IMG/VR virus record: IMGVR_UViG_3300018414_000007
Location: 17,107-81,106 of that record
Length of the DNA: 64,000 nt
Source of the DNA: a virus
Reading direction: 5' to 3' (one strand)
A program made the translations under genes and the position numbers. Shown here piece by piece: positions 14,910-63,869 of this stretch (its first letter is position 1; each line of letters begins with the position of its first letter). The notes under the pieces were generated by a model. That model saw only the letters and a list, made by a program, of their open reading frames with translations, was not told where the DNA came from and made no database searches.

Positions 14910-14930
14910 CAATTAATCAAATTAAATAAT

Positions 14931-17404: not shown

Positions 17405-17418
17405 TAGTCCTCTTTTTT
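17396..17418 (+). terminator. Rho-independent terminator
   Basis: GAGGA (17396-17400) pairs with TCCTC (17408-17412) and is followed by a T6 run. It overlaps the stop codon of the preceding small ORF and ends the unit driven by the promoter at 16372-16403. Confidence 0.7.
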
Positions 17419-17429
17419 ATTTTATATAT

Positions 17430-17564
17430 ATGAGTAAATCAAGTAGAAAAAGAAAAGCACAGAGGAGATTAGACTCTAAGATGGGTAATTATGATAAATT
17501 TGGAGGTAAGTCTCCTTATAGTGGTCATAAATTAAATAAACCAGGAAGTAAACAAATTAAATAG
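17430..17564 (+). CDS. Small highly basic protein
   Basis: A 44-residue ORF starting MSKSSRKRKAQRRLDSKMG with a Gly/Lys-rich end. Probably nucleic-acid binding from its charge. The next gene starts two bases after its stop. No domain recognised. Confidence 0.6.
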   Translation: MSKSSRKRKAQRRLDSKMGNYDKFGGKSPYSGHKLNKPGSKQIK

Positions 17565-26020: not shown

Positions 26021-26551
26021 ATGAAAATATGTAAAAAATGTAATGTTGAAAAATCTCTAGGAGAGTTTCACAAAGATAAAAGAACTAAGGATGGATTATA
26101 TAAATGGTGTAAATCTTGTAAAAAAGAGTATGATTTAATATACAGAAAAACAGATAAAATTCAAAATTTATATAAGTCTAAAGAGTATAGAAATAGAAAA
26201 AAGGAATATAAAAAATGGAGAGATATGACTGATCCAAGAGAACAACTTTTAATATCTGCTAAAGCTAGGGCTAAAAAGTATAATATACCTTTTAATTTAA
26301 CTATAGATGATATAGAATTAAGAGCTTATTGCCCTTTATTGGAAATTAAATTAGAAAGAAAACAATATGGAAAGGTGGGTTCATTTAATCCAAATTCCCC
26401 TTCTTTAGATAGAATAATTCCTAGTTTAGGTTATGTAAAAGGAAATATAGAGGTAATTTCAATGAAAGCAAATATAATGAAAAATAACGCAAGTATAGAA
26501 GAATTAAAAACATTTGCGAATAATATATTAAGGTGGTATGATTATGATTAA
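26021..26551 (+). CDS. HNH homing endonuclease 1
   Basis: The 176-residue protein has an N-terminal Cys4 finger (MKICKKCNVEKSLGEF, CKSCK) and a C-terminal HNH core: CPLLEIKLE, then SPSLDRIIPSLGYVKGNIEV, then SMKANIMKNNAS. Free-standing homing endonucleases cut intronless or uninserted alleles and spread by repair. It sits between the orphaned start and the body of a class II glutaminase, flanked by 11-bp imperfect repeats. A ten-residue-longer start falls inside the promoter, so the ATG at 26021 is used. Its N-terminal finger resembles that of the 38438 HNH. Confidence 0.88.
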   Translation: MKICKKCNVEKSLGEFHKDKRTKDGLYKWCKSCKKEYDLIYRKTDKIQNLYKSKEYRNRKKEYKKWRDMTDPREQLLISAKARAKKYNIPFNLTIDDIELRAYCPLLEIKLERKQYGKVGSFNPNSPSLDRIIPSLGYVKGNIEVISMKANIMKNNASIEELKTFANNILRWYDYD

Positions 26552-28142: not shown

Positions 28143-28152
28143 AGAATATATA

Positions 28153-31436: not shown

Positions 31437-31697
31437 ATGGAAAATTTAGCATCAATCCTTATTGGTATAGCATTAATTGCAGCAGGAATACTGTCTTATT
31501 GGTTATTTAAACCAAAAGATAAGAAGTCTATAGATAGTAATACACCTATTGAAGTAGATGAAAAGAAAGCTGAAGTAACTGAAGCAATTGTGACAAAACC
31601 AAAGAGAGTGTATAAGAAAAAAGTAGCAAAAGAAGAGGAGATTAGTGGAGAAGGAGAAAGTTTACCAAGTACAACAGAAGGAGGACAGCAATCTTAG
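31437..31697 (+). CDS. Small membrane-anchored protein
   Basis: The 86-residue protein has an N-terminal helix (LASILIGIALIAAGILSYWLF) and a Lys/Glu-rich disordered tail ending in Ser/Gly. It overlaps the reductase gene by 53 nt. No domain recognised. Confidence 0.65.
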   Translation: MENLASILIGIALIAAGILSYWLFKPKDKKSIDSNTPIEVDEKKAEVTEAIVTKPKRVYKKKVAKEEEISGEGESLPSTTEGGQQS

Positions 31698-33540
31698 TAA
31701 TAAGATTCTATCTGATATTGTAGTATTTAACAAATATGCAAAGTATATTCCAGAACTTAATAGAAGAGAGTCTTGGGAAGAGATAGTAACTAGATATGTA
31801 AATATGCTTACAGATAAATATCCACTCTTAACAGAGGAGATATTAGTCAAAAGTAAATTTATATTTGAAAAGAAGGTATTACCTTCTATGAGAGCATTAC
31901 AATTCGCTGGTATTCCTATTGAAAGGAATCCTAGTAGAGTATATAATTGTGCTTACTTACCAGTTGATGATTACAGAGCTTTTAGTGAAGCTATGTTTTT
32001 ATTATTAGGTGGTACAGGAGTAGGATATAGTGTACAATTTGCTCATATAGAAAAATTACCAGAGATAGTTAAACCAACTAAAACTAAACGTTACTTAGTT
32101 AGTGATAGTATAGAAGGTTGGGCAGATTCCATTAAAGCTCTTATAAAGAGTTATCTGGGATATACTAATGCAAAGCCAAGATTTGATCTTTCTGATATTA
32201 GAAAGAAAGGAGCTAGGTTAATAACTGCTGGAGGTAAAGCTCCAGGTCCAGAACCACTAAAGACTTGTTTGTTTCAAATTGAAACATTACTAGAAAGGAA
32301 AGAAAATGGGAGTAAACTAACAGATGTAGAATGTCATGATATTATGTGTTATATTGCAAATGCAGTATTAGCAGGTGGTATTAGAAGAGCTGCAATGATT
32401 AGTTTATTCTCATTTGATTCCGAAGCTATGCTTACTAGTAAAACAGGTAATTGGTGGGAATTAAATGAACAAAGAGGTAGAGCAAATAACTCTGCTGTAA
32501 TTGTTAGAAATAGAATAAACAAAGAAGATTGGGATAGAGTTTGGAAGATAATTGAAAATAGTAATTCAGGAGAACCTGGAGTCTATTTTACAAATGATGC
32601 TAATTGGGGTACTAACCCTTGTTGTGAAATAGCATTAAGACCATTTCAATTTTGTAATCTTACTGAAGTAAATGTATCTGATGTTGAATCTCAAGAAGAT
32701 TTAAATGAGAGAGTAACAATAGCTGCATTCTTTGGTACACTTCAAGCAGGATTTACAGATTTCCATTATCTAAGAGATATATGGAGAAAAACAACTGAAA
32801 AAGAAGCTCTGATTGGAGTAGGTATGACTGGAATAGGTTCTGGTCAAGTATTAAAATATGATTTAAAAAGTGCTAGTAAAGAAGTTAAAAAAGAAAATGC
32901 AAGAGTATCTGATATTATATCTATCAACTCTGCAGCTAGGTGTACAACAATTAAACCTTCTGGGACTAGTAGTTGTGTACTTGGTACTTCTAGTGGAATT
33001 CATGCATGGCATGATACTTATTATCTCAGATCTATTAGAGTTGGTAAAAACGAGTCTTTATATACTTATTTAAGTATATATCATCCAGAACTAATAGAAG
33101 ATGACTTTTTTAAACCAGAGACACAAGCAGTAATAAGAATTCCACAGAAAGCTCCTAAAGGTTCTATATTAAGAACTGAAAGTGCTTTAGACCTATTAAA
33201 TAGAGTAAAGAAATTTAATCTTGAGTGGGTTAAATCTGGTCATAATAAAGGTAGTAATACTAATAATGTATCAGCTACAATATCAATTAAACCTGAAGAA
33301 TGGGTAGAAGTTGGTGAATGGATGTGGAATAATAAAGAGACATTTAATGGATTAAGTGTATTACCATATGATAATGGTAGTTATATCCAGGCACCCTTTG
33401 AAGTAATAACTGAAGAGGAATACAATAAGAAATTTGAAACACTAAAAAATATAGATTTAACAAAAGTAATAGAACTAGATGATAGTACACAGCATTCTCA
33501 AGAAGCTTCTTGTGCAGGAGGACTATGTGAAGTTACTTAA
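31645..33540 (+). CDS. nrdJ: Class II (B12-dependent) ribonucleotide reductase
   Basis: The 631-residue enzyme reduces ribonucleotides using adenosylcobalamin. Motifs: MRALQFAG, first redox Cys102 in RVYNCAYLP, active-site NPCCEIALRPFQFCNL (Cys326/327), KPSGTSSCVLGTSSGIH, and a C-terminal CAGGLC (Cys623, Cys628) that shuttles electrons from thioredoxin. This pattern is closest to the monomeric RTPR type. The start is a GTG at 31645 after AGAGGAG. It gives an anaerobic-gut phage an oxygen-independent dNTP supply if the host has cobalamin. Confidence 0.9.
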   Translation: MEKEKVYQVQQKEDSNLSNKILSDIVVFNKYAKYIPELNRRESWEEIVTRYVNMLTDKYPLLTEEILVKSKFIFEKKVLPSMRALQFAGIPIERNPSRVYNCAYLPVDDYRAFSEAMFLLLGGTGVGYSVQFAHIEKLPEIVKPTKTKRYLVSDSIEGWADSIKALIKSYLGYTNAKPRFDLSDIRKKGARLITAGGKAPGPEPLKTCLFQIETLLERKENGSKLTDVECHDIMCYIANAVLAGGIRRAAMISLFSFDSEAMLTSKTGNWWELNEQRGRANNSAVIVRNRINKEDWDRVWKIIENSNSGEPGVYFTNDANWGTNPCCEIALRPFQFCNLTEVNVSDVESQEDLNERVTIAAFFGTLQAGFTDFHYLRDIWRKTTEKEALIGVGMTGIGSGQVLKYDLKSASKEVKKENARVSDIISINSAARCTTIKPSGTSSCVLGTSSGIHAWHDTYYLRSIRVGKNESLYTYLSIYHPELIEDDFFKPETQAVIRIPQKAPKGSILRTESALDLLNRVKKFNLEWVKSGHNKGSNTNNVSATISIKPEEWVEVGEWMWNNKETFNGLSVLPYDNGSYIQAPFEVITEEEYNKKFETLKNIDLTKVIELDDSTQHSQEASCAGGLCEVT

Positions 33541-46940: not shown

Positions 46941-49900
46941 TTACTTGTTGTCAATAGCTTGTTTAGTAGCTGAATAAACCTTTTCAGGTATATTTACTAT
47001 AGGCAATGCTTTAGCAAGTTTAACTGCTATCTTACTATGACCTTTATGTATTCCTGTTTTATAAGTACCTTTACCTTCAATTGTTTGAGCTACTGCTTGA
47101 CCTAAATCTGCAAAGTCCATTAAAGTTTTAAATGCTGGTATGGGCTCTCTTATTACTGCTTGGAATGAGTAAGGATTGTAGAAGAAAGTTAAATCTCCAG
47201 ATACTCTAGTAGTAGAATTTAATAAGAATGTTAATGCAGCTTTCTCTTTATCATCATCATGATACAATCCATGAAGCATTGCTTTCATAGCTAATGCAGC
47301 TCCCCAAAGAACAGGAATAAAAGCTAACTCATAAGCATTCATTCTTAAGTTTCTATTATCTATACTATCAGCATTTTCATCAGTAGTAAATGCCTTGTAC
47401 ATATCTTTGATTAAAGGAATAACGGCTAAGTGACTTAGTTTATAACTTAAGTATCTACCTTTCTGTATATCTCCAGATAGAGTTTGATACTCTTTACCAA
47501 ATCTTACAGAGATAGATCTTGGAAGCCACTTCCTCATAGTAAGAAGGTTTCTCAATATGTACTTCTGAGAAGCCATAGTAGCATCACCATAATCACCATG
47601 TACAGCTGTAACTACAGATTGAATATGAGAACTCATCTCTAATCTCTTTCTATCATCATCGTAAGGATTAGGACCAAATTGATCTGTTTTCCATTCACCT
47701 TTACCATCAAATGCATCAAATAAATCATGTTCAACTCCAGACAAATCTGTTACTTTCTCTTTCATAAGTACAGATATACCTGTTTGATGCTGAATAAAAT
47801 CTTCAGTTTTATTTACAAGTACATAAGGAGTAGCTTCAGCTAATGGATTATTAATACTTGGTAATTTAAACTTACCAAACTTAATCTCTCCTAACTGCTG
47901 TCTCATATCAAAATATTCAGCTAATGCTTTAACTTTAGAATGAGCTTCAGTCCAAGGTAAACTAGCTTCTAACATATAACCAAAGGATTTAATATTCTCT
48001 CTTTCACCATATGCTTTTCTATCACCTGCATAGATTGTATTAGATAATACTCCCCATATAACACGACCAATAGAAGATACAGGATTTAAACCTAATGCTT
48101 TTAATCTAGTATAAGCAGATACAGTATCAACAACTTTACTACCTGTTAAAGCTCTAGTTTCTGTAACTGGTTCTCCTTTAGCATTAAGTGTAGTTCTTTT
48201 GATTGTAGCATCTGGATTAGCTCCAGTATGTTCTACACCTCTATCATACAAGAAAGATTCTAACATATAGTTAGATTGAGATGTAATATTAGGAGCTCTA
48301 CCTGGACTTTCATCTAAGATAGGAGTACCATCATCATCTGTAACTATTTGATCTGAAGTATTAACTTTATAAGCAGGTTGTTTCTGAGTTAATTCTTTCA
48401 TCATTTGTAAATAAGGTTCTATCTCATTTTTATGATTAAGCATAAACTCTTGTAATTTAGCAGCTAATAATACTCTACCTAAGTCATATGATTTATCTGC
48501 TGGGTTCATAACATTACTCATCATATAAACAGGTATAGACTCATTAGGAAGACCATTTATATCTAAGCTATTAGTGTTAACAGTAGATTCTAATTTAGTT
48601 GTTACAGAGTCTGTAGCAAGCTGTTGGATAGCTTTAAATGCACCTTTGAAGTCTCCTTCTAACATTCTATCCATATAGTCTTTCTTTACTTCGGGTATAT
48701 AGTTAGATTCATTACCATAAAGTTTAGCCATAGATCTAAATTGAGAGTCTAGTTCATTATAAACTTTCATCTCTACAGAATCTTCACCAAATGCTTTTAA
48801 AGCAGTATATCTAGGATCTATCCACTTACTATTAGGAGTACTAGTAACATAGTCTTTATACTTATTTCTTTCTTCTTTAGATATGTAAGAACCTTTCTTA
48901 ACCTTAGCAATATATTGATCTGGATTATGAGAAGCAGTCCATTGTTTAAACTTAGCATAATCATGAGTACCTTCTTTATTCCAATCAGGTAATTCAGATT
49001 TTAACTGCTCAACATCAGCATTATATCTTTCTTTATCCTCTTCTGTAATCTTTACATCCCAATCTGTTCTATCATACTTCTTTTTAGTCCAGAACTCATG
49101 TTTATATTTATTAAGAAGTCTACCTGTAGGATTACCATCTTTATCTAATTGTAATACTGCATTGTAGTTTTTATATTTCTTTTGAAACTCTTTAAATACA
49201 GGAACTATTTTATCTTGGTATTTAGAAAAATCATCATTAGTTTTTAACTCAGCTTTTCTAATTACTGTTTGCATAGCTTGTAATTTAGGACTACTAGAAT
49301 ACATAGCAGATTCAAATGTAGATTCCATATTACCTACATCTTTGTTAGGTTGATTAAATACTTTACCTAAATCAACATTAGGATTAATATCAGTACCAAA
49401 GTAATAAGATAAAGTCTCTAATTTCTTTTTATCTAATTCATTATTTAAATCAATTGATTTTCTAACAATATCATCTAAGTTTTTATTTTCTTCAGCAAAA
49501 GCTTCATTATAAGTAATATAGTTTCTTATATTAGCATACCAAGATAAATATCTTTTAGTTTCATCTATATCATAAGCAGACATTCTTCCAGGTCTATTCA
49601 TAATAGTTTCAATAGAAGCTAACTTATCTTTAGCTTGAGCAGTAATTATACTAACTGTATTTTCAGCTTTAATCTGTTTGATTTGATTATTTATATCTTC
49701 TACTTTAGCTTGTAATCCAGGATTCTTTGCATAATTAGGATTAGATTGAAACTTGTTTCTAATATCATATAATCTCTTTAAAGACTTTTCAATAATTCTT
49801 TCTTCTTTAGACTTAGGCATAACTGGTTTAGGATCTATATCATATAAAGGAGTTCCACCTTTAGTAAATACTCTAAGAACTCTTTTACCATTTTCCCAAG

Positions 49901-52900
49901 CTAAATCTATTTTAATATTATTATATTTAGAATTCTTTTCCATAGCAGATTTAATCCTATCAAAATGAGGAGCTGTTAGTGGTTTACCATCATATAAATG
50001 ATACTTATTTAAGAACTCAGTTTTGGCATCTTTAGGAGCTAAATCATTCAATGAATCTGGATTTGTTAAAAGTTCTGAGAAACCCTCTTCAAATACCATA
50101 TTACTTGGTATAGGAAACTCACTAAACATCTTGGCCATTTCTGGATTTCCATAACCATTAAGGTTTTTACCAGCTCCATTATAAGCAACTAAAAAGTCTT
50201 TATCAGGATGTTGATTAGCATATTCATAAAGCTTTTGTATTTGAGATACTATTCTTTCTCTAGACACACTAGGATGTTTATCTTTAGTTAAATCCTTAGT
50301 TACAATAGCATAGGATTGTCCTTGTGGACCTTCTGCTTGACCATACTTAGCACCTGCAAATCTAGATGCAAATAAAGCAGCTCCCATACCATGTCTACCT
50401 TGAGTATTACTACCAAATACAAATACTTGATTAGGTTCTAATTTAGTAATTTGTCCTTCATAAGTTTTTACTTGTGGTGTATTAGGAGTTTCTTCTTTAG
50501 TTTCTTCAACTGATTTCTCTCTACCACCTAAATCTAAAGTAGTATTATATAATGCATCATAGTCATTTTTATAAGATTCATTTAATCCAAGAAGATTAGC
50601 TACAGCTTTCCATAATTTATCCCAGAAGTTGTTATCTTTTAACTTAGCTACAAAATTCATATCTGTTAATCCAGCTACAAACTCATGTATATTAGTTAGT
50701 GGATAAAATTCTGATTTATTATCCATAAACCACATCTTATCTTCATCAGATACTTGTTGTCCATTTCTGAGTTTCTCAGTAATATCTTTAAACTTTTGTA
50801 ATCCTTCTTGATCTGCAATTCTGTTATACTGATTAAATAATATTTTAATCTTATCTACAGATTTCTTATCTTCTGGAGACAACTTGTCATAATTATTTAT
50901 TTTGTATGCTGTAATGGCATGAATCATCTCATGAAGTATAGTCTTACTAATAGAGTTAATAGGATCTGTTGATCTATTTAATGCATTATCAATATTAATT
51001 GATATTGTATTATTAACATATGATCCAGCAACTCCTTCTCTAGATAAATTTGTATCTATCTTTAGATTAGGAAAGTTAACTAATACTCTCTTTAAATCAT
51101 TAGCAATATTAGCAAACTCCTTATTAGGACCATTAGCTATTGTAGTTAATGTAGATTCAGGATTATTATTATCTAAATTAAAGTGTTTAGTTAAGAAATT
51201 CTTATCTACAATTTGTACAGCTTTATCTGACTTAGTTAAATTATCATCTTGAGACTTATCTTCTTCTATCCTATTAGTGATTTCTCCTGGAATAGGAAGA
51301 TTAGCTTGATTATTTTTAAAGATACTATATTGACCTTCTTTAGCTGAAGCATTATATTCATCTATACCATCAGCTCCAAGTAAATCTATTCTACTATAAG
51401 AGCTTCCTAAAGGAGTAGACTTACTTATTTTATAAAGCATAAAGTCTTTAGCTTCTCTATCATATACACTCATATAAGTAGGATATGTAAGATTACCATA
51501 ACCATCTGGTACAAGATAACTACTTCTACCATCCATAGTAAATCCTTCTAATCTTTTATAATCATGTATATCCTTACTCTTTGGATCAAATGCAGAAGCT
51601 TTACTAGGATTATGTTGAAAGAATTGTTCTATAGCATTAGCTAATACATTAACTTGAGGGTCTCTAAGATTCTTATCTATTTCATGTAATTTATCACTAA
51701 ATCCATGCTCTTCTAATATATCATAAGGAATGAACTTAGCAATAGAACTAGGTCCTTGCTTAGCTCCAGTAAGTACAAAATAATTTACTAAATCTTTAGC
51801 AAGTTGTTTTTCTTCCTCTGTACCTTTATGATACATTCTATAGTAAGATAACATTGCTTCACTAGTATCACTAGTATTGGCTGCTGGTGTATTTAAAGCT
51901 TCTAATCTAATAGGATCAGATGTGCCTTTACCTCTTCTTACAAGAAGTCTCTCACTCAGCATATTTTTTTTACCTGCGGGAGTTTGAGTATAAGCTTCCC
52001 ATCTATTACCCAATGCTTGTGAACCAAATAGTAATCTATTTCTTTCTACATTAACATCTTCTATACCTAATAGATTGCTATGACTATATATGTAAGATTT
52101 GAAAGAATCATACATACTCTTTAAGTCCTTAGCATTGATTTCAGATCTATCAGCTTTACCCATTTCTTGAAGTACACTCTGAACATTAGATATGTAATCT
52201 CCAGTTTCATATGGAAGTATGTTAGAACCTATACCAAGAGCTTTATAAAGAACATCTGTAGCTTTACTAATAGTATTGTTTTGGAATAAATTCTCTGCAT
52301 TAATAATATCAGAAGTGTACTTAACAATATCAATATTATTAGCTTTAACTTGTAAGTCTACAAATCTAGTACCTAATCCATTAGTATCAACATTAATAGC
52401 ATTTTGTAGCATTCTAATAGACTTAGCCATATCCTTAATTTTAAGGAACTGATCTAAAATAGCTATTTGATTTTCATTAGTAGGATTTTTTAATTCCTCT
52501 TTTAATTCATCTATTGAGAATATATATTTAGAACTATTGTCTACTCCACCAGAAATGTATCCATGTAAACTTTCATCTTCTTTATTAGTTGTTGGATATT
52601 TTTCTATCTTAAGTTTTTGTAGAACTTCTAACTGTCTTTGAGCATTTGACTTAAATACAGGATTAGTTATATCATTAGCATTACTTAGCTCATTTACATA
52701 ATCTCTAAGGATAGGTTGAGATAAGAAATAACCAATATGATTTTCATCAAATCCAGCTAATAGAATAGTACCAGCTACATCCATAGTTAATGGATTAATA
52801 TTTAAATAACCAAGTAATTGTTCTTTAGCATTATCTACTGAAGCAGATTGTAAATATTGTACTACAGTAGAAGGAGATTTGTTTTCAATAAATCCTTTAC

Positions 52901-55900
52901 CATATAACTTATTACCTCTAACTATCTTATTGTCAATTTTAAAATCAATTGATTTATCTGTTGGTAAAGCTAATTTAGCATCTTGAGCAGCTCTAATAAA
53001 GGTACTAAACAAAGAGAATATACCCCTACCTGCTATACCATCATTATTGTTTTTATGAAACTCATTTTGTTTGATAGTACTAAAGAAGTGATTATCTGAA
53101 TCTAAATTCTGAATATACTTAATTTCATCAGCTAGTTTAGGTAAATCACCATAACCATTAGGTTCAAGAATCTTAGGAAGTAGATCTACATCCTTATATC
53201 TGTCTTCATAGTATTGTATAATAGAGTTATCTATTTGTTCATCACTAAATTTGGATATATCTGTATCTACAAGATTACCTTTTAAATCTCCATTCTCATC
53301 TACAGAAGTACCAGATTTAAAGTTACCTTCAATCTTAGAGAATTTATTACCATCAAATTTATAATGGTATCTGTACATAAATAATTTATCTACGTCAAAG
53401 TCAGAACCCATCTGAGCTACAATTTCAGCAGGAACAATAGCTAAATCTCCTACAGTCTTAGGTAAGAAACCTTTAACTTTAAAACTCATCATAGAGTTAT
53501 AACCTTGTGTAGGAATTCTAATACCTATAGTAGTAAGTAAGTTCTCAGGTAACCTATCTGTATCTAATGTACCATCTTCTTTTAAGAATTTAGTCATATC
53601 AATAAGTTTACCATCTTTACCAGTAAACCAACTAGGTACTAATATTTCAGCTTGTAAAAGAACTGTACCATCTTCACTTTTTCTAATATAATTAAGTGTA
53701 GTATCATTTGGATTAACCCAAACAATACTATCTTTAGCTTGAGCATTCAATTGATCTAAAGTTCTTAATCTGCTAAATCCAGCAGAAGAACCTTGTATCT
53801 TACTAAATCCAGGAAGTTCAGATTTAATAACTCTATTAGTAAATAGACTATTTAGAATAGACTCTAATCTACTACTACTATTATTAAATCCTAAAGGTAT
53901 TTTAAATCTTTGTACACCATCTACAGTTTCAATCTGTAAACCATATACATCATTTACATTATAATTTCTACTACTAGCTTCTTCAATTAGAATCTTTTGT
54001 AATTTACTAAGGTCCTTAATCTTAACGCTACTACCATCTGTTTCAGCTCCTATATCTTTTAATAATCCTTTAAGAGCTCTATTCATCTTCTCTATATGAA
54101 GATTTTCATATATTTGTTTAGCATCTTTACCAGATACAGGTGAATCAAATAAATGTAATGTATGGTCATCATCAACATCAAGAAGAATAAGTTTTCTACC
54201 TTGAGTACCTTCATTTACAGTAGAGTGACTCTCTGGACTATGATAAGGTACTTCTTGTTGTATTCTAAATCCATCCCTATCTAATGTAATAGCATTCTTA
54301 GATAAGTCTAAATCATCTCTAATAACACCCTGACTAGATTCAGTTTGTACTATGTTACTAATAGGTAAACCTAATTTAACACCAGACTCATATACAGCTC
54401 TATCTACTTTAGCTGTTTCCATAGCTACTCTAAGCTTATCTATTTCTAAACCTTTAGTAAGGGCTGGAATTAATGGGAAAGAAGATGTCTTAATATAGTA
54501 CATTCTATCTATACCCATAGACTTATCTACCATAGTACCAGCATATACTGGTTTCATAGGTTGTAAGATTAAATCTATATCTGATTCATTAGAACCACCA
54601 TCTATTAATCTTTTACCTGCCGCTTCAAGTTCTGGAGTTAATTTACCATAAGCTTTCATAACAGCTAAATGTTCAGCAAGAGTAGTATATTCTTGAGCAT
54701 CTGCAGGATTCATATTTTTATAAGCTTCTGCTCTTTCTTTAATTACTTCTTGGTACTTATCAAATAGTTTAGAAGTATACTTTAAGTCTTTTAAGAATAC
54801 AGTAGTATATTGAGGTTTATCAAATAAACCATCTAATCCAGGAGCAACATCTTTAGCTAACCTTTTATTATAGTTAATCCAAGTCTTATCTATATTACTT
54901 TTACCATGTAATGCTGGATCCCCTGATATTAATTGAGTATAGTTGAAGTGAGATATAAACTGATTAATAGCATACTCAGCAGCAAATGCAGCTAACTTAT
55001 GTTTATCATCTGTAAAGTCTCCAAACTTCTTATCAAAAGATTTATCATAGAAAGGAGTATCTTTTTCTAATAGACCTAATTGTTTCCAGTATTTAACTTG
55101 TTTTCTAATTAAATCTTCAGTAAACTTCTGTATTTCTGGAGTAACAATTCTTTCTAATGTTTGAGCATCAATAGTTCTTAATCTGCCCTTTTCATCAAAT
55201 AGTTCTTTATTCTTATTTAAGAAATCATAAACAAGGAATTTTTCTCCCATACCAAAGTGATATCCTTGTAATAGTCTATCTTGAAATTCAGGATTTTCTT
55301 GTTGAGATTGTACTTCTCTTATTCTGTTATATTCTGCAATAAATGGTGCATATAAAGCTCTTTTAGCTGCATCATTCTTTACTACTAAAGAACCTTCATT
55401 CAGTTTAACTGGAATTTTAGGAACTTCAATAACCATAGGAGTAGGTTTATCTGAATAGATTGGAGCTAAGAACATACTATTAGGTCTACCTTCATTTTGA
55501 TAGTTAGATATTCTAGTAAATTCTTTCTCTTTATTATTCATCTTACTAAACACTTTATTAGGTTGATTAGTTTCATTACTTCCTAATGAGTCAAGTGGAT
55601 GTATAACAAAGTTTTGTCTAAATGCTGGATCAGATACATATTTATTACCCCAAATAGAATTAGCAGCATAAGTTGTTGTTAACTTATTGTTAATAAATTG
55701 TAAACCCTTCTCTTCATTCTTCAGTCTATTAAAGAATTTAGATACCATAGTATTATTAGTAATAGAGTATCTAGGTTTACCATCTCCTCCTACATATGAA
55801 GATTCATATAAGAAAGGATTAGTAATATTCTCTAATCTAGCTAATTGAGTTAAAGCTCTGGTTTCAGATATAAATGGATTGTTTAATTCTAATTTACTAT

Positions 55901-58900
55901 CTTCTTCTTCAGCTACATCACCAATTAAATTTTCAGTTGGAGTATAACCAGCAGATAGTCTTTTAAATATTAGTGATACATAATCTTTTAAGAAGTTTTC
56001 TGCACTAACTTTCTTACCATTTATTTTAGTACCTTTTTTAAGTAAGTTATCTATTGTGTTTATAGACAAGTTAATACCAATAGCATCTAAACCATTCTTT
56101 AATCTTTTAGCATTATCTGTATTCTTAGAATCAAATGTTTTCAAGAAGTTATTAAATGAGTCATTAAACTCTTTACCTCTTTTAGTATCAACTACATAAT
56201 TACCATGACCATCATCTGTAACTACACTTGAATTCTTAAATTTATCATACCAACTATCCATCAAGATGTTATTAGCACCTTGTCTGTTAGTTCCAAATAC
56301 TCTAATAGTTCTTCTTGCAGTCTTATCTGCATAACCTATTTTAACAGTTACTGGACTTCTTTGATCTTGAGAAAATGCTACTACAAACTGATTCTGAATA
56401 GATGTATCTGGATCATTCATAATAGTTTGAAGAATAGTAGAATACATAGGGTTATTAACAGCCAATTCTGTTATTGTAGGAATAATTTCATCAGCAGATA
56501 AACCAGTTAAAACTCCTTGTAAAGAAGTCCAAACTTTATCTAAATCCATCATTTCTCCAGTACCTAAGAAGTTAGCAACAGGTTCTAATTTACCATCAAC
56601 TAATTCTACTTTAGGTATTAAAGATAACTTAAGTTTCAAATGAGCACTAGCTGTATCTTTAGTAGACTTCTGATCTACATCTAATGTATAGTCTCTTCTA
56701 TAATCTGCTTCAGTACCAACAAAATTATCTTGAGGATGCTCATCATCTTCAATAGGTTGAATATCTGATTTATCATCTTCAGAAGGAATATCAGGAGTAT
56801 TATTAACTACAAATGTTTTAGTTACTTTAACACCAATACCTTTTAAAGATTCAATAGTTTTTTCTTTAAATTTATCCCAATTATCATCAATATCTTTAAA
56901 CTTTTGAATAAGATTATCATATTGATTATTTGTATTAATATCTGGATCAGAGTAAAATTCTCTACTATTATCCATAACATCTCTAGCATAATCAAATAAG
57001 TCATCTACTGTAGTATAACCTTCTTTCTTACCTTCTTCAATAGCCCAGATAATAGATTTAATAACTGTTCTTTGTTGACTATCTGAAAACTTATCTAAGT
57101 TAACAAATAGTTTATCCATAACAGAGAAGTTAGGATTTATAGGAGTAAGATCATATAATTTATTAGATATATTATAATCTATATTTTTAAATGGGGCTCT
57201 TTTTAAGTTATAAGCAACGTCTTCATTACTATTAGTTTCTTGAAAGGTAGGAAAAAGAAATCTTTTATCTAGTACTTTACCAGCATATGCAAATGACATT
57301 AACTCATCATGTACATCTGAATTATAATTGAACTCAGCTTCCTTATAAGCCCAAGCTATATTAGCAGCAGCTTTTATTTCAGTTTCACTTAATTCTGGAT
57401 GGAGTTGTTTTAAAATATTAAGTAATATTTCCTGCTGACCTTTCCAGTTAGGACTATCTTTAAACTGTTCAGAAGCTGCTAGATGTTCAAATACATCCAT
57501 CTTAATATTTCTAGATGGAAGATACTTAACTTCTCCTTCTGCATATGGTCTAATAAAAGGTTCACCAAATTGATCACTAGCAATAGTATTAACTAATCCA
57601 AGTACTTGTCTAGCATAAATAGCAACTGCATCTTTGTTACCTAATTTTTTTATATCCTCTTCTAAATTTTTAAATAAACTATTAGTTTCATCACTATTTA
57701 GAATAGGATTAAGATCATCTAATGGAATATCTTTAATAGGAAGTTTTGGAAGAACTGTTTTAGTTTTCTTTTTACTTTTTTCTTCAACTTCTATTGGTTT
57801 TTCTTCTTCTATAGTTGGTTTTGTTTCTTCTGTATTAGGTTCTTTAACCTCTTCATTATTATTAGAAGTGATTTGTTTAGTTTCTTTTTCTACACTATTA
57901 GATATACCTATAACTGGTTGAGCTGTAAAAGCATACTCATTACCATCTATATGTACTCTTCTTAAATTAGTAGTAACAGCAGAGTGTTCATCTAAATAAT
58001 GTTGATAGCTGGGATTTTCTTTTTGTTGAATAACTCCATCATTATCTAAACTATAAGAGTAGTAAGGGTCTTTACTATTTAAATCTTTCAAACCAAAAGA
58101 GAAATACCTTTCAGCTAATTTATTAGCTAATTCATCTCTAGTAGCTTGATTATTAATAATATCATTTAAAGAATATTTATCTCCATCTAAACTACTCAAG
58201 TAAAGATTATCTTTAAATAATTTAAATACAGTATTAACTTGAGCATCTGATTTAGAAGAACTATACATAATTCTATTAATAAAATCAGTTACATCTTTAA
58301 AGTTATTAAAGTTAAACTCTGATATATTATTTATAGATTGTTTTTCTTTATCAGTTAAATTATCTTTCTTAGCAAATAATTTAATAGCTTCTACAATAGT
58401 CTTAGCATTACTTAATCCTATTTTATTAACTTTCATAGGATAAGCTATGTAAGAACCTTCTTTACTACTTGGAACAATAGAATACATAAATCCATTATGT
58501 AAAGTATCTGGGTTAATTATTTCTCCATCACTAAAGCTATTACCAGAAGTGTCTGTGTATAAATCACCTGCATCAGCAGCTATATCAGTATTAACCACTC
58601 TAACAATACCTAACTTAACTCTATCAGCTAATTTAGTACCATCTCCTAAAGCTTTGAATAAACTTTTCTGGTTTTCAAATTTATCAGAGATTAAATAACC
58701 TGGAGATTTAGAAGTAATAGAACCTTTAAATTTACCATCTTTGTTATCAAATATAAATTGTCTTAAAGTTAAATTATCAGCTAAAGCCTGTTCTTTAAAT
58801 TCATCTGCTACTCTTTTCTTTATATTGCTTTGAGTAGGAATATATGAAATTATTTTACCTTCCTCATTTTTAATAGCAATAGGAAATTCATTAACATCAT

Positions 58901-61900
58901 TAATAACATTTGTATATTTGTTGTCTCCAAACTCTTGAGTTCCTCTTTCATTCATCTCAGCAAAAGTAGGTACTTCAATAGAAACATTGTCTCCTACTTT
59001 ATAATGATTTGCAGAGAATAACTTTGGATCAACAAATTTGTTAACTTCTACATTTCCTTTGTCATCAAATGTATCATATATCTTTCCAGTAATGGAATTA
59101 GAATCTTCATCATAGTTTCCTATTTCAACTTTATCAATAGCTAAGTAAGCCATAGCATTACCTATAGTTCTTTTAGTATCTAAACTAATGATATTAACTT
59201 CACTATCTATATGATTAAAATGTTCTAATGAAACTTGTTTTACTAATTGATGTTCAGGACTAGTAATTAAATCTCTATTAGCTTTTAAATCTTTATTCTT
59301 TTCAATAGTAACTACAGCTGTTTCTTCTGGAGTTAATACTTCTGTACTAGACTCATTTGTAGCCTCTACAGGAGACTTTTCTACTTGAGTAGTATTAGTA
59401 TCTACTGAAGTATTATTAGTTGATTGTGAGGCTTCTTTAGTAGGTGTAGAAGGGATTTCTTCTTCATCATCCCAATCTTTAGTAGCACCATTACCTATAG
59501 GTTCATCTGTTTGAACATTCTGAGCTTTAGTTAAAGTCTCTTTAATGTTCTTTTTCTTAGTATCTTCTTCAGCTTTATCTTTAATATCTTTTAACTTATC
59601 TTGAACTTCAGCTTGCTGTTTATCTTTAATAAGCTGTTGAGCTTGTTCAAACTGTCTTTGACCTTCTTGAGTAAATAGATGATTATATACGTCTAAGTAA
59701 TCTTGTCTTTTTTGTCTAAGCTTCTGAGTATCTTGAAGTAATTGAACAATCTTATCACCATTTAAAACAGCAGCTGTAGGATTAACTTTTTGCAAGTTCT
59801 CCCAAGCCATTTGTTCTGGAGATTTTAATTCTGATTTATTTTTTAATTCTGCTTGATATTGAGATTTTTCAGCAGGAGTAGTGTCAGGATGATCTATTAA
59901 TTTCTTTAATGTATCAATTTCTAAGCCTAATTGACTTGAAGGAATATCAGAAGAATATCTTAAGTTAGTAATAACTCCATCAGACAATTGAGCTAATTGC
60001 TCATTCATCTGTTTTTCCCTAACATCTAAATTCTTAGCAGCAGCAATAGAATGAACTAAGTGATCTCTTAAATCATCATTATCTCCTCTATATACATCAT
60101 CAGCTATCTTCATAGCTTGTTTTGTATTCTCTGCTCTAGCTAAAAACTGATTAGTAGTATCTAACTGGAATTTAATCTTCTCCATATCAGTTGCTTTATC
60201 AGCAGCTTCATCTCCTTTAAAACTAGAATAGAATTCATCTGGAGATAATTTCTTCATATGATCTACTTCATCTAGTAAGTCTTGATACAGATTATTTTTT
60301 ATTCTACTACTTACATAACTATGGATTTGATCATCCTTAGCATTCTGAAAATTAAATATATCTCCAGCAGCAAGAGCAGCATCTTGGTCTTTTTGTAAAC
60401 TATGGTTTTCTACTAAAGTATCATAGTTAGCTTTAGCAGTTTTGAAGTAATTAGTATGTTGATTAAGGTCATTAAGTACTTTACCTATCTTACGTTCCTC
60501 TTCAGCTCTTTCATCAAAGCTTCCTTTAACACCACCAGTCCATAAAGGTAATTTTTCTTTACCTATTACATTACCATTAGCATCTGTAACATCTTTAAAA
60601 CCATATTTACCTAAAGGATTATTCTCACCTAATGGAGATAAAATACCTCTTCCTGGAGCCCCTAAAGCACCTATAATCATACCCATACCTATATTATTCC
60701 AACCTTCTTTAGTTGTATAGGTTTCAGCAAGTTTCTGTGCAAATGTAGTTAATAAATCACTGGTATTAGCCTTAGCTTCTTCATCATTCTTTCTATCCCA
60801 AAATTCTCTAGCAGTATTAGAAATAGTACCTTGTATACCAAACTTAGTAGATTCTTCAAATGGTTTAGTAAGACCTGTAGTTATATTATCTAATATAGAA
60901 TGTTTACCATTATTAGCTAATTTAAATAGACCACTTTCAGCATCTTTTACTATAGCACCTTCAGCAATTTTAGATGTTTCATGACCTAATCCAAATAGTT
61001 TAGGAAATAATAGTAAGTTAGTACCACCTACTAAAGCTAAGTTACCTAAGTAAGTAAATAAACCTGCTTTAGATAATCTATCATCTATATCATCTTTAAC
61101 AGATTGAGGCATATCCTCTCCAGGATGTTGCTTTTGATAATCATCAATCATCTTCTCTCTAAGTTCCATAGTAGCTTGTCTAGCTTCTACTATACCTTCA
61201 TAAGAAGCACCCATAGCCAAGTGTTTAATACTTGTACCTAAGTCTCCTGCAAGAGAAATTCCTTTTGTAGCTAATGAAGTTAATTGTGCTGTTGCTTCTG
61301 ATGCTTCTGCTCCTTCACTTAAATATTTCATAAACTTAAGTGCTCTTGGAACTAATGTTTCAGAACCTAATCCAGAAGTAGCAATTTCAGATAATACAGC
61401 TCCTGCCATGAAACTGGCTGTATCAGTTGCTTCATCTGTAAATTGGGTAGGATGGAGAAATAACTTCTGTAAGATATTATCATCCTTATAATCTGCGCTC
61501 TTATATACATGGAAGATATCATCTAATTTCTTATTACCAGAATCTACTGCATTAATAAATGAATTATCCCAAATCTTAGTAATATCTCCTTGTGCTATAG
61601 CATCACCAACACCATATACAGTACCTGCAATATTACCAACTGTAGATAAGAATGTCTTACCTAAAAATTTAGCTGTAGCATCTCCTAAAGCACCAATAGT
61701 ACTTTGATTTTGAGCCCTTTCATCTTCTAAATTTGGAATATCTGATTCATAAACACTCTTATCATCCAAGTCACTAGGTTGATACTGATTACCTACATAA
61801 TCAGCTGTACCTGTATCTGCAATTCTAGGAGTCTCAGAATAAGACTTAGAAAGATTAGGAATGCTAGATGGATCTACACTACCATATGAACTAAGAGGTA

Positions 61901-61958
61901 GGTTATTACTATCCAAGGGAGCTTGAGGGTCTACATACCTTGAAGATTTCTTAGCCAT
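46941..61958 (-). CDS. Giant virion RNA polymerase polyprotein (5005 residues)
   Basis: A single uninterrupted ORF. Around residues 2853-2857 it has GSDFDVDKL, a DxDxD motif like the metal-binding loop of crAss-like phage RNA polymerases (phi14:2 gp66), which resemble eukaryotic RNA-dependent RNA polymerases of RNA silencing. In those phages the enzyme is packaged and transcribes early genes after injection. The N-terminal 700 residues have hydrophobic segments (near residues 85-120 and after), as in ejected virion proteins, then an acidic linker. HExxH (ILHEMIHAI, 3676-3680) with a downstream NIHEFVAGL suggests a zinc-metallopeptidase domain. Near 3845 VFVFGSNTQGRHGMGAALFA suggests a macro-like domain. 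The C-terminal 1000 residues are unknown. Relatives usually split this region over several giant genes. Confidence 0.88.
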   Translation of the reverse strand: MAKKSSRYVDPQAPLDSNNLPLSSYGSVDPSSIPNLSKSYSETPRIADTGTADYVGNQYQPSDLDDKSVYESDIPNLEDERAQNQSTIGALGDATAKFLGKTFLSTVGNIAGTVYGVGDAIAQGDITKIWDNSFINAVDSGNKKLDDIFHVYKSADYKDDNILQKLFLHPTQFTDEATDTASFMAGAVLSEIATSGLGSETLVPRALKFMKYLSEGAEASEATAQLTSLATKGISLAGDLGTSIKHLAMGASYEGIVEARQATMELREKMIDDYQKQHPGEDMPQSVKDDIDDRLSKAGLFTYLGNLALVGGTNLLLFPKLFGLGHETSKIAEGAIVKDAESGLFKLANNGKHSILDNITTGLTKPFEESTKFGIQGTISNTAREFWDRKNDEEAKANTSDLLTTFAQKLAETYTTKEGWNNIGMGMIIGALGAPGRGILSPLGENNPLGKYGFKDVTDANGNVIGKEKLPLWTGGVKGSFDERAEEERKIGKVLNDLNQHTNYFKTAKANYDTLVENHSLQKDQDAALAAGDIFNFQNAKDDQIHSYVSSRIKNNLYQDLLDEVDHMKKLSPDEFYSSFKGDEAADKATDMEKIKFQLDTTNQFLARAENTKQAMKIADDVYRGDNDDLRDHLVHSIAAAKNLDVREKQMNEQLAQLSDGVITNLRYSSDIPSSQLGLEIDTLKKLIDHPDTTPAEKSQYQAELKNKSELKSPEQMAWENLQKVNPTAAVLNGDKIVQLLQDTQKLRQKRQDYLDVYNHLFTQEGQRQFEQAQQLIKDKQQAEVQDKLKDIKDKAEEDTKKKNIKETLTKAQNVQTDEPIGNGATKDWDDEEEIPSTPTKEASQSTNNTSVDTNTTQVEKSPVEATNESSTEVLTPEETAVVTIEKNKDLKANRDLITSPEHQLVKQVSLEHFNHIDSEVNIISLDTKRTIGNAMAYLAIDKVEIGNYDEDSNSITGKIYDTFDDKGNVEVNKFVDPKLFSANHYKVGDNVSIEVPTFAEMNERGTQEFGDNKYTNVINDVNEFPIAIKNEEGKIISYIPTQSNIKKRVADEFKEQALADNLTLRQFIFDNKDGKFKGSITSKSPGYLISDKFENQKSLFKALGDGTKLADRVKLGIVRVVNTDIAADAGDLYTDTSGNSFSDGEIINPDTLHNGFMYSIVPSSKEGSYIAYPMKVNKIGLSNAKTIVEAIKLFAKKDNLTDKEKQSINNISEFNFNNFKDVTDFINRIMYSSSKSDAQVNTVFKLFKDNLYLSSLDGDKYSLNDIINNQATRDELANKLAERYFSFGLKDLNSKDPYYSYSLDNDGVIQQKENPSYQHYLDEHSAVTTNLRRVHIDGNEYAFTAQPVIGISNSVEKETKQITSNNNEEVKEPNTEETKPTIEEEKPIEVEEKSKKKTKTVLPKLPIKDIPLDDLNPILNSDETNSLFKNLEEDIKKLGNKDAVAIYARQVLGLVNTIASDQFGEPFIRPYAEGEVKYLPSRNIKMDVFEHLAASEQFKDSPNWKGQQEILLNILKQLHPELSETEIKAAANIAWAYKEAEFNYNSDVHDELMSFAYAGKVLDKRFLFPTFQETNSNEDVAYNLKRAPFKNIDYNISNKLYDLTPINPNFSVMDKLFVNLDKFSDSQQRTVIKSIIWAIEEGKKEGYTTVDDLFDYARDVMDNSREFYSDPDINTNNQYDNLIQKFKDIDDNWDKFKEKTIESLKGIGVKVTKTFVVNNTPDIPSEDDKSDIQPIEDDEHPQDNFVGTEADYRRDYTLDVDQKSTKDTASAHLKLKLSLIPKVELVDGKLEPVANFLGTGEMMDLDKVWTSLQGVLTGLSADEIIPTITELAVNNPMYSTILQTIMNDPDTSIQNQFVVAFSQDQRSPVTVKIGYADKTARRTIRVFGTNRQGANNILMDSWYDKFKNSSVVTDDGHGNYVVDTKRGKEFNDSFNNFLKTFDSKNTDNAKRLKNGLDAIGINLSINTIDNLLKKGTKINGKKVSAENFLKDYVSLIFKRLSAGYTPTENLIGDVAEEEDSKLELNNPFISETRALTQLARLENITNPFLYESSYVGGDGKPRYSITNNTMVSKFFNRLKNEEKGLQFINNKLTTTYAANSIWGNKYVSDPAFRQNFVIHPLDSLGSNETNQPNKVFSKMNNKEKEFTRISNYQNEGRPNSMFLAPIYSDKPTPMVIEVPKIPVKLNEGSLVVKNDAAKRALYAPFIAEYNRIREVQSQQENPEFQDRLLQGYHFGMGEKFLVYDFLNKNKELFDEKGRLRTIDAQTLERIVTPEIQKFTEDLIRKQVKYWKQLGLLEKDTPFYDKSFDKKFGDFTDDKHKLAAFAAEYAINQFISHFNYTQLISGDPALHGKSNIDKTWINYNKRLAKDVAPGLDGLFDKPQYTTVFLKDLKYTSKLFDKYQEVIKERAEAYKNMNPADAQEYTTLAEHLAVMKAYGKLTPELEAAGKRLIDGGSNESDIDLILQPMKPVYAGTMVDKSMGIDRMYYIKTSSFPLIPALTKGLEIDKLRVAMETAKVDRAVYESGVKLGLPISNIVQTESSQGVIRDDLDLSKNAITLDRDGFRIQQEVPYHSPESHSTVNEGTQGRKLILLDVDDDHTLHLFDSPVSGKDAKQIYENLHIEKMNRALKGLLKDIGAETDGSSVKIKDLSKLQKILIEEASSRNYNVNDVYGLQIETVDGVQRFKIPLGFNNSSSRLESILNSLFTNRVIKSELPGFSKIQGSSAGFSRLRTLDQLNAQAKDSIVWVNPNDTTLNYIRKSEDGTVLLQAEILVPSWFTGKDGKLIDMTKFLKEDGTLDTDRLPENLLTTIGIRIPTQGYNSMMSFKVKGFLPKTVGDLAIVPAEIVAQMGSDFDVDKLFMYRYHYKFDGNKFSKIEGNFKSGTSVDENGDLKGNLVDTDISKFSDEQIDNSIIQYYEDRYKDVDLLPKILEPNGYGDLPKLADEIKYIQNLDSDNHFFSTIKQNEFHKNNNDGIAGRGIFSLFSTFIRAAQDAKLALPTDKSIDFKIDNKIVRGNKLYGKGFIENKSPSTVVQYLQSASVDNAKEQLLGYLNINPLTMDVAGTILLAGFDENHIGYFLSQPILRDYVNELSNANDITNPVFKSNAQRQLEVLQKLKIEKYPTTNKEDESLHGYISGGVDNSSKYIFSIDELKEELKNPTNENQIAILDQFLKIKDMAKSIRMLQNAINVDTNGLGTRFVDLQVKANNIDIVKYTSDIINAENLFQNNTISKATDVLYKALGIGSNILPYETGDYISNVQSVLQEMGKADRSEINAKDLKSMYDSFKSYIYSHSNLLGIEDVNVERNRLLFGSQALGNRWEAYTQTPAGKKNMLSERLLVRRGKGTSDPIRLEALNTPAANTSDTSEAMLSYYRMYHKGTEEEKQLAKDLVNYFVLTGAKQGPSSIAKFIPYDILEEHGFSDKLHEIDKNLRDPQVNVLANAIEQFFQHNPSKASAFDPKSKDIHDYKRLEGFTMDGRSSYLVPDGYGNLTYPTYMSVYDREAKDFMLYKISKSTPLGSSYSRIDLLGADGIDEYNASAKEGQYSIFKNNQANLPIPGEITNRIEEDKSQDDNLTKSDKAVQIVDKNFLTKHFNLDNNNPESTLTTIANGPNKEFANIANDLKRVLVNFPNLKIDTNLSREGVAGSYVNNTISINIDNALNRSTDPINSISKTILHEMIHAITAYKINNYDKLSPEDKKSVDKIKILFNQYNRIADQEGLQKFKDITEKLRNGQQVSDEDKMWFMDNKSEFYPLTNIHEFVAGLTDMNFVAKLKDNNFWDKLWKAVANLLGLNESYKNDYDALYNTTLDLGGREKSVEETKEETPNTPQVKTYEGQITKLEPNQVFVFGSNTQGRHGMGAALFASRFAGAKYGQAEGPQGQSYAIVTKDLTKDKHPSVSRERIVSQIQKLYEYANQHPDKDFLVAYNGAGKNLNGYGNPEMAKMFSEFPIPSNMVFEEGFSELLTNPDSLNDLAPKDAKTEFLNKYHLYDGKPLTAPHFDRIKSAMEKNSKYNNIKIDLAWENGKRVLRVFTKGGTPLYDIDPKPVMPKSKEERIIEKSLKRLYDIRNKFQSNPNYAKNPGLQAKVEDINNQIKQIKAENTVSIITAQAKDKLASIETIMNRPGRMSAYDIDETKRYLSWYANIRNYITYNEAFAEENKNLDDIVRKSIDLNNELDKKKLETLSYYFGTDINPNVDLGKVFNQPNKDVGNMESTFESAMYSSSPKLQAMQTVIRKAELKTNDDFSKYQDKIVPVFKEFQKKYKNYNAVLQLDKDGNPTGRLLNKYKHEFWTKKKYDRTDWDVKITEEDKERYNADVEQLKSELPDWNKEGTHDYAKFKQWTASHNPDQYIAKVKKGSYISKEERNKYKDYVTSTPNSKWIDPRYTALKAFGEDSVEMKVYNELDSQFRSMAKLYGNESNYIPEVKKDYMDRMLEGDFKGAFKAIQQLATDSVTTKLESTVNTNSLDINGLPNESIPVYMMSNVMNPADKSYDLGRVLLAAKLQEFMLNHKNEIEPYLQMMKELTQKQPAYKVNTSDQIVTDDDGTPILDESPGRAPNITSQSNYMLESFLYDRGVEHTGANPDATIKRTTLNAKGEPVTETRALTGSKVVDTVSAYTRLKALGLNPVSSIGRVIWGVLSNTIYAGDRKAYGERENIKSFGYMLEASLPWTEAHSKVKALAEYFDMRQQLGEIKFGKFKLPSINNPLAEATPYVLVNKTEDFIQHQTGISVLMKEKVTDLSGVEHDLFDAFDGKGEWKTDQFGPNPYDDDRKRLEMSSHIQSVVTAVHGDYGDATMASQKYILRNLLTMRKWLPRSISVRFGKEYQTLSGDIQKGRYLSYKLSHLAVIPLIKDMYKAFTTDENADSIDNRNLRMNAYELAFIPVLWGAALAMKAMLHGLYHDDDKEKAALTFLLNSTTRVSGDLTFFYNPYSFQAVIREPIPAFKTLMDFADLGQAVAQTIEGKGTYKTGIHKGHSKIAVKLAKALPIVNIPEKVYSATKQAIDNK

Positions 61959-61961: not shown

Positions 61962-63869
61962 TTAGTCTCCTTTTATTTTATTGTTATTAACTATTTCTGT
62001 AAATAGTGATGTCTTTTCTTCATTTTCTATTCTAGAAAGAGGAATTGGAATTGGTTTACCTACATCTCTTCCTGTCTTAGGATCTACTTCTTGGAATATT
62101 CCTCCTCCTGCAAGCTTACCATTTTGATTCTGTTTAAATGGAATCATTCTACCTACATGACCAGCAATAGCATAAGGAATGGGTTCTTGGTTAGGATTAG
62201 TTAAAATAGTTTGTGGTTTTCCACCTACATTAACTTTAACTTCTTGTAAATTCTTTGGATCAAAATCTTGTATATAGTTTTCTATTGATTTACTTCCAGT
62301 AAATTTCTGTTGAATCTGATCTGGTAGTGGTGAATAATAATTAGTACCTTTATTACTAAACTGAGTAAATCCATTTAATGGTCCTAATGTTTTAGGACTA
62401 ATACCAGCGATTTGAATATTTTTAACTTCATTATCTTTAGTATTATCTGAACTACTTGAAGTTTGAATTTCATCTAATTCTTTTGGATCTGTCACTTTAG
62501 CTAATTGACCATTTGTTAATTTATATACTTCTCCAGTACTAATTTGTCTTCTAGCAACATCTGCCATAACATCATTTAATTTTTTATTATCAGTACTAGT
62601 TACTTTATAATTAGCTCTATCAAAATCACTAATTAAATTTTTATACTCAGTTAAAACTTGTTTAGCTGTACCATGACCTGGGGAATAACCTAATAGTTTT
62701 CTAGCAGTAGCTAAAGTATTAACTTCATTTTCATCATAACCTCCTGGAACTTGAAGTTTAGTATTTGCAGATCCTATACCTAAAGAAGACAATCCTGATT
62801 TATTACTAGAATAATCTACTGGAACAGCATCTTTGAATTTAGCTCTATTTTCAGGTGTATCTTCTATAAATCTAGAACCATGATTTAAATTACCTTTATC
62901 ATCTAAACCATCTAGAATTTTCTGTACTTGTAAACTTAATTGTGAATTAGGTGTACTTTGATCTTGACCATCTGATCCCTTTCCTGTTGGGGTTATAGCT
63001 TTGCTATAATCAAGTAATTGAAAAGGAGGAGTAGAAGTACCTAATAAAGCTTTCTTTTTGTCTTCTTCTTCTTTATTAAACTTCCATTTTTCCCAATCTA
63101 ATTTTTGTTGTTCCATATATAATGGATCGTTAGATTGTTGTAAATAGCCCATACCAGCATCTATATGATTTTTAACCTTAGCAATTGCTTGGTCATCATT
63201 TAATCCTTGCTGTTTATAATAATTAATACCTTCTTGTACATCTTGACTATTAGTGTTAAGAGTACCATCTTGGTTATAATAAGATTGACGTACAGTATTT
63301 AATGCATCTATATTAGACATATGTCTACCATCAGACTTCATAATATGCTCTTTATCTTTAAATGCATTATTAATATTCTGATCAAAGTTAGTAGCTCTCA
63401 AATCTCCAGGATTAGATAAGAAATTACCTTGAGAGTCTTTTCCTGTAAAATTAGGATTAGAATCTATGTACTTAATACCTTTAGCATCTAATTCATCTTT
63501 GATGCTTTGTTTCTTCTTTAAAGCTTCATTAGCTGACTTAATAACTTGAAGTCTAGGATCAGCAGCAAATTGCATATTTAATCTTCTTGCTTCTTGTTCA
63601 TACATAGGATCAGAAGTATTACCATGATACTTATCAAGTAAAGCACCTTGTTGGGATCTATAGTCATTAGCAAATTGATTTATAAAGTCTTTATGAGCAG
63701 GAGCTAAAGCTTCAGCACTAGATAATCCAGTTTGAACTTGATCATTCTGAGCTTGAGCTAAATCTCCCCTTGATTGAATTGCTTGTGCTGCTTGGTACAT
63801 AGATTGTAATGGAAGAGGAACATATTGCTCTAATGTATTATTTACAGGCGAGCTATACTCATTAATCAT
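61962..63869 (-). CDS. Virion-associated protein (putative cargo/ejection protein)
   Basis: The 635-residue protein is polar and Gln/Asn/Lys-rich, with a helical N-terminal half (YQAAQAIQSRGDLAQAQNDQ) and a C-terminal beta-rich part. There is no signal peptide or enzyme motif. In crAss-like phages a protein of similar size and composition precedes the RNA polymerase genes and is found in virions. The ATG overlaps the stop of the upstream endonuclease; the RNA polymerase gene starts three bases after its stop. Confidence 0.65.
   Translation of the reverse strand: MINEYSSPVNNTLEQYVPLPLQSMYQAAQAIQSRGDLAQAQNDQVQTGLSSAEALAPAHKDFINQFANDYRSQQGALLDKYHGNTSDPMYEQEARRLNMQFAADPRLQVIKSANEALKKKQSIKDELDAKGIKYIDSNPNFTGKDSQGNFLSNPGDLRATNFDQNINNAFKDKEHIMKSDGRHMSNIDALNTVRQSYYNQDGTLNTNSQDVQEGINYYKQQGLNDDQAIAKVKNHIDAGMGYLQQSNDPLYMEQQKLDWEKWKFNKEEEDKKKALLGTSTPPFQLLDYSKAITPTGKGSDGQDQSTPNSQLSLQVQKILDGLDDKGNLNHGSRFIEDTPENRAKFKDAVPVDYSSNKSGLSSLGIGSANTKLQVPGGYDENEVNTLATARKLLGYSPGHGTAKQVLTEYKNLISDFDRANYKVTSTDNKKLNDVMADVARRQISTGEVYKLTNGQLAKVTDPKELDEIQTSSSSDNTKDNEVKNIQIAGISPKTLGPLNGFTQFSNKGTNYYSPLPDQIQQKFTGSKSIENYIQDFDPKNLQEVKVNVGGKPQTILTNPNQEPIPYAIAGHVGRMIPFKQNQNGKLAGGGIFQEVDPKTGRDVGKPIPIPLSRIENEEKTSLFTEIVNNNKIKGD

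Follow-up and report, generated by a model that had tools for sequence, protein, structure and literature searches.

Few proteins injected into bacteria are as large as virion RNA polymerases. In phage N4, gp50 (PDB 9pnt/9pnr; PMC12633501) is an injected giant chain in which an N-terminal domain, a T7-type single-subunit polymerase core, a zincin (C1), and a large C-terminal domain (C2) follow one another. According to a review, the RNA polymerases (RNAPs) of crAss-like phages reach ~6000 aa (PMC10136315), and gp47, gp49, and gp50 of crAss001 are present in virions (PMC10172136). The Cellulophaga phage phi14:2 carries a DxDxD RNAP core (g066; PDB 6vr4) with flanking proteins g067 and g065 and a zincin at the N-terminal side of g065 (residue 245); g067, g066, and g065 were annotated from virion MS/MS. 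In the Flavobacterium phages FpV4 and Fpv1, the N terminus, RNAP, and zincin form one chain, a giant virion structural protein that measures 4287 aa in FpV4, and in cr50_1 (Cohcovirus) a 4774-aa protein annotated as "DNA helicase" joins the N terminus, RNAP, and a macrodomain on the C-terminal side. Polyvalent proteins (Iyer et al. 2017; PMC5512222, whose text does not mention crAss-like phages) also combine unrelated enzyme domains and zincin metallopeptidases (MPTases) in one virion-borne chain.

We analyzed a 64,000-nt stretch (positions 17107 to 81106 of an 81,106-base virus record), referred to below as the window. Its left end encodes a portal (up to 40% identity) and a TerL (33%) matching those of crAss-like phages, and the crAss-like label therefore holds. 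On the minus strand, on which all features of the chain described below also lie, a single open reading frame (46941..61958) encodes a 5005-aa polyprotein, a predicted virion RNAP, that resembles the polyvalent proteins in composition and would be injected like them. Its domains follow the same order as those of phi14:2, but phi14:2 has three separate genes and no macrodomain. Since the same content makes up three genes there, the window ORF represents three ancestral genes that have been fused, with one further domain inserted. FpV4 and Fpv1 also differ from the window in lacking the macrodomain and in having the g065-like part as a separate 1596-aa gene, whereas the cr50_1 protein, whose macrodomain is 66% identical, has no such zincin behind RNAP (a YHEAFH motif precedes RNAP instead) and a separate g065-like gene. 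N4 gp50 shares the overall layout and a homologous zincin with the window, but not the macrodomain. The T7-type core of N4-like virion RNAPs (Schitoviridae) was not found in the window, where the core matches 6vr4, so that only the zincin is common to both. The g065 domain (profile A5) and N4 C2 gave an hhalign probability of 0.4%, and no relation between them was detected by sequence. Both the polymerase and the protease ideas are already published. We consider it likely that the ORF encodes crAss-like transcription cargo made as one chain, in which the zincin is a shared ejection-protein module and the macrodomain a recurrent passenger.

Composition and frequency of the fused chain

The original prediction of one 15-kb frame with polymerase, protease-like, and macro-like regions was borne out: the ORF starts with ATG, comprises 5005 codons with zero internal stops, and contains an RNAP, a zincin-type metallopeptidase fold, and a macrodomain. 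Segment-wise profile searches and structure prediction, which had been suggested as checks, linked the RNAP core to 6vr4, the zincin to PHROG_2206, and the macro segment to NF049995, and produced AlphaFold models with a pLDDT of 90.5 for the zincin and 90.1 for the macrodomain. The anatomy of the chain was determined with iterated HMMs seeded from the window and run on 168 sequences (the window plus fetched loci, designated L). The N-terminal cargo region (residues 77-697; 59868..61730) is homologous to phi14:2 g067 and to phrog_32390 (E = 6.4e-16) and is followed by two low-complexity linkers, one at residues 771-896 (59271..59648) and an E/K/T-rich one at residues 1344-1428 (57675..57929). 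The two-barrel RNAP region, similar to phi14:2 g066, spans residues 1701-3310 (52029..56858) and precedes a conserved post-RNAP region (residues 3313-3552; 51303..52022). After the zincin (residues 3643-3776 by HMM) and the macrodomain (residues 3827-3965), a C-terminal region (residues 4181-4996; 46971..49418) is homologous to the C-terminal part of phi14:2 g065, an "RNA polymerase associated protein" (E = 2.5e-10).

The polymerase assignment was made by alignment, since a DxDxD motif by itself proves nothing: ~2.4 occurrences are expected by chance in the shuffled chain. Residues 2500-2900 matched 6vr4_A (phi14:2 gp66) with E = 4.3e-20 over 374 residues including DFDVD (residues 2853-2857; 53388..53402), and DFDVDK at residue 2853 aligned with the catalytic motif of 6vr4, which identifies the core as a crAss-like two-barrel RNAP. 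Another DxDxD (DVDDD, residue 2594) falls outside the aligned motif and was rejected as the catalytic site. We also discarded weak Pfam matches (DUF1168, DivIC, etc.) and a weak PHROG match to a "head maturation protease" (E = 0.037). Searches of the PDB with profiles of the g065 domain (A5) and the N-terminal region (A6) produced no convincing relative, and single-sequence IMG/VR scans with the zincin or RNAP segment found nothing, so profile queries were required. The upstream 635-aa gene (61962..63869) gave no match in sequence searches and was placed by position only, at that of phi14:2 g068 and cr50_1 QOR58059.

RNAP and the g065 domain were both seen in 92 of 101 dereplicated loci; they lie in one ORF in 16 loci and in separate ORFs in 76. 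The expectation that this region consists of several genes in most crAss-like phages is therefore correct for these two parts but not for the N-terminal part, which is joined to RNAP in one ORF in 35 of 49 loci. Single ORFs of ~4.7-5.3k aa with RNAP, zincin, and g065 domain occur in L014, L021, L033, L043, L047, L056, L061, and L078, among others. The window ORF itself is known from one metagenomic contig, as would be the case for an assembly artifact; however, the same domain order and comparable single ORFs recur in independent assemblies (L014, L021, L043, L047, L056, L061, and L078), and we find an artifact hardly credible. The fusion is genuine and uncommon, yet already known.

Some relatives carry polymerase genes divided in other ways. 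In four loci, the virion RNAP is split in two genes upstream of the DxDxD half, with a ferritin-like gene (Pfam PF00210; E, 3e-12 to 8e-17) exactly between them (L013:9117-9593, L034:9115-9588, L037:8946-9446, and L025:9076-9561). Introns were rejected as an explanation because the halves flank the ferritin-like gene; the arrangement resembles a beta/beta'-type split whose halves are separated by an iron-storage-like gene. In L005 (cr116_1), a LAGLIDADG-type ORF at 16608-17452 (GLLIGDG..WYMDDGH) interrupts the RNAP gene right after GSDFD. This insert is probably a homing element that has entered the catalytic motif, and the interruption had no Rfam match at the gathering threshold. Standard-code stops break the RNAP blocks of L092, L105, L106, and L158 into many short frames, suggesting stop-codon reassignment; a tRNA scan of L092, L105, and L158 found none.

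The zincin-type domain and its relatives

By structure modeling and profile matching, the HExxH region is a zincin-type metallopeptidase fold (residues 3587-3800 in the model; 50559..51200) with putative zinc binding and proteolysis. HEMIH (residues 3676-3680; 50919..50933), which would supply zinc ligands and the general base, is the one HExxH in the chain, with 0.08 expected by chance. In the family alignment, an HE..H..T motif is followed by a Y-G...N-x-EF motif, and HExxH together with the downstream Glu is conserved across ~50 relatives. Judging from its conserved EF column, the Glu of this second motif, Glu 3759 in the window (NIHEFVA; 50682..50684), is likely the third zinc ligand.

When searched alone, the window zincin matched PHROG_2206, "virion RNA polymerase" (E = 2.7e-9), as did 30 of 43 family members, and an hhalign comparison with N4 C1 gave 94.8% (5e-8). 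The zincin profile also matched solved ejection proteins, namely, the "internal virion protein" 9sfn (2.6e-14) and PhiM1 gp48 (8vb2; 7.6e-8), both of which retain HExxH and the Glu, and the region gave a SprT-like match at 1e-4. The top VIA-align match of the model was residues 2124-2363 of N4 gp50 (9pnt), with a Z score of 7.1, where values of <8 are weak taken alone; anthrax lethal factor and other zincins came next. A Foldseek search with the same model gave no significant match, and a missing match is not evidence. The sequence matches carry more weight here than the fold comparison. In PDB 8vb2, the same HExxH...E zincin occupies residues 381-486 of an ejection protein solved as a capsid tetramer; the main text on PhiM1 gp48 (PMC11440229) does not mention a metalloprotease.

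Because the N4 core is T7-type and unrelated to the two-barrel core, the zincin is common to N4 and the window phage and the polymerases are not. That it follows polymerase cores of two unrelated kinds and also occurs in ejection proteins suggests that it does the same job in all of them. We found no earlier description of this sharing in the open literature, and its novelty is provisional. It is conceivable, if quite unlikely in this full form, that the zincin is a portable virion-cargo or ejection module that has been exchanged between phage groups, joined behind T7-type (N4) and two-barrel (crAss-like) RNAPs and into podoviral ejection proteins, and that it serves packaging or ejection rather than self-cleavage.

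Two more zincin-like motif types were observed in the same gene block of crAss-like loci such as L042, L071, L072, L088, L104, L134, and L152. The YHEA[FW]H type (YHEIGH in L042) lies upstream of RNAP, and the HEF.HPF type lies near the N terminus of the g065-like protein in some loci.

Zincin and gene fusion

Self-processing by such domains was proposed in 2017 for N4-type and other polyvalent proteins, with processing of P1 DdrB as a precedent (PMC5512222), and the original prediction likewise cast the HExxH domain as a possible resolver of the fusion. On this reading, the zincin would autoproteolyze the chain, in the capsid or after ejection, and release equivalents of phi14:2 g067, g066, and g065. 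The domain is indeed present in all 16 loci with fused RNAP and g065 domain, 13 of which have HExxH. However, it is also intact where the genes are separate, in phi14:2 g065 and many other unfused loci (34 of 76). Six loci have lost the first His (EExxH in L011, L021, L024, L029, and L052; KExxH in L087), in about four separate events on the RNAP tree; in four of them (L021, L024, L029, and L087) RNAP and the g065 domain are fused, and in L021 all three parts form one chain of 5066 aa. Eight fusions of the N-terminal part and RNAP (3.9-5.1k aa; L051, L065, L066, L069, L070, L073, L076, and L081) have no HExxH anywhere in the ORF. In addition, the N4 virion RNAP is packaged unprocessed (PMC5512222), and no degradation of recombinant gp50 was observed (PMC12633501). 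We therefore regard autoproteolysis of this kind as improbable. The association of zincin and fusion exists at the clade level and may reflect shared descent as well as function, and the domain may have a processing role in some lineages. In the EExxH versions, metal might still be bound, with Glu in place of the first His.

Since its presence is uncoupled from fusion, the zincin looks like an ejection-protein module rather than an obligatory fusion resolver, with later processing possible. What such a module would do can be read in two further ways. A mainly structural domain for encapsidation or ejection, with residual or zero catalysis, would fit the need for the zincin-containing region in N4 encapsidation (PMC5512222), the same domain in structural ejection proteins, and the retention of the domain in four lineages that lost the first His. 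Nevertheless, HExxH and the downstream Glu are kept in ~90% of the family, which suggests selection for metal chemistry; we judge a mainly structural role decidedly improbable. A protease effector directed at a putative host target, a known alternative for polyvalent MPTases (PMC5512222), would agree with the YHEA[FW]H and HEF.HPF motifs at other sites of this gene block in related phages, but the conserved place after the polymerase suggests a task tied to transcription or ejection, making this role doubtful though not far-fetched.

The macrodomain and a model for cargo delivery

The macro-like segment (residues 3827-3965; 50064..50480) belongs to the A1S_2505 family: it scored 105.9 bits against NCBIfam NF049995 (A1S_2505 family phage protein; E = 1.3e-30), well above the cutoff of 45, and also matched phrog_2072. 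Pfam macro models matched none of 55 members at E <= 0.01, and PDB sequence searches with macro profiles A1 and A3 gave chance matches only; the macro assignment thus rests on the fold. Macrodomains were found throughout the list of the fold search (TARG1, Z = 11.7; alphavirus macro, 10.5; DarG, 10.4), and Foldseek gave 5.5e-4. By its model, the segment is a genuine TARG1/DarG-like macrodomain fold with putative ADP-ribose binding or hydrolysis. Across 55 sequences, the glycine-rich loop is invariant and a Lys (K65 of alignment A3) is near-invariant; it lies in a T-K-D motif that probably resembles the one around the catalytic Lys in TARG1 and DarG. The zincin and the g065 domain are 405 aa apart in the window, or 266 aa minus the macrodomain, which matches the spacing of 267 +/- 41 aa in 16 fused relatives lacking a macrodomain there; the insertion is therefore clean.

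The macrodomain had been viewed as a novel addition to a phage polymerase. Its place in the polymerase chain is genuine, but it is not unique to the window phage. It occurs in at least 9 of 80 loci sampled by RNAP, a lower bound because the sampled loci are truncated. Among 80 loci sampled by macrodomain, one ORF encodes both it and RNAP in ~32, a share biased upwards by a query alignment drawn from RNAP-fused proteins; most others are standalone genes of ~140-190 aa. It lies before RNAP (L004, L005, L022, L135, L155, L159, and L167), inside the first RNAP region (L060), inside the RNAP C-region (L138 and L140), after RNAP (cr50_1 and others), before the zincin (L038, L039, L041, L045, L089, and L129), or after it (the window, L025, L037, L145, and L157). 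Parsimony on the RNAP tree required 13 presence changes and 18 position changes, on loci partly sampled by macrodomain and with some weak deep nodes. Many crAss-like phages thus have the macrodomain in their RNAP polyproteins; it occupies about six different positions and was gained or lost about a dozen times. A search of the open literature for crAss, macro domain, and RNA polymerase returned no relevant paper; we found no earlier description of its repeated entry into this polyprotein there, and novelty is again provisional.

If a macrodomain keeps returning to this chain, ADP-ribose chemistry presumably counts within minutes of the start of infection, which would link crAss-like phages to NAD/ADP-ribose defense. 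The segment could instead be a neutral decoration or an RNA- or nucleotide-binding polymerase domain and not a deADP-ribosylase, as the absent Pfam macro match would allow. We consider that unlikely, given the TARG1/DarG fold, the invariant loop and near-invariant Lys, the many standalone versions in other phages, and the variety of unrelated insertion sites. As a passenger that was acquired repeatedly and would reach the host at time zero, the domain would most likely remove ADP-ribose from phage DNA or protein that a host defense (DarT-like) has modified or hydrolyze ADP-ribose-type signals; a 2022 survey of phage macrodomains favors small-molecule targets (PMC9503650).

In the model that we favor, which draws on homologues, the polyprotein would be packed in the capsid as loosely linked domains, thread through the tail ahead of the DNA as in the beads-on-a-string model for N4, and refold in the host to transcribe early genes. 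The zincin, if active, would act on a host or envelope protein, either in the course of ejection or once it is complete, or trim its own chain, and would not be what makes the fusion workable. The C-terminal part may, by analogy, regulate the polymerase as in N4, which shows autoinhibition, although no homology was found between the two C-terminal parts.

Elsewhere in the window, positions 26538-31397 encode in tandem a glutamine amidotransferase (GATase_6, 1.6e-12), an amidoligase (Amidoligase_2, 1.6e-12), and a weak second amidotransferase. A single tRNA-Arg (tct) gene at 14838-14910 overlaps a predicted ORF (14886-15164), and a ribonucleotide reductase whose insertion domain is of the B12-dependent (class II) type is encoded at 31645-33540.
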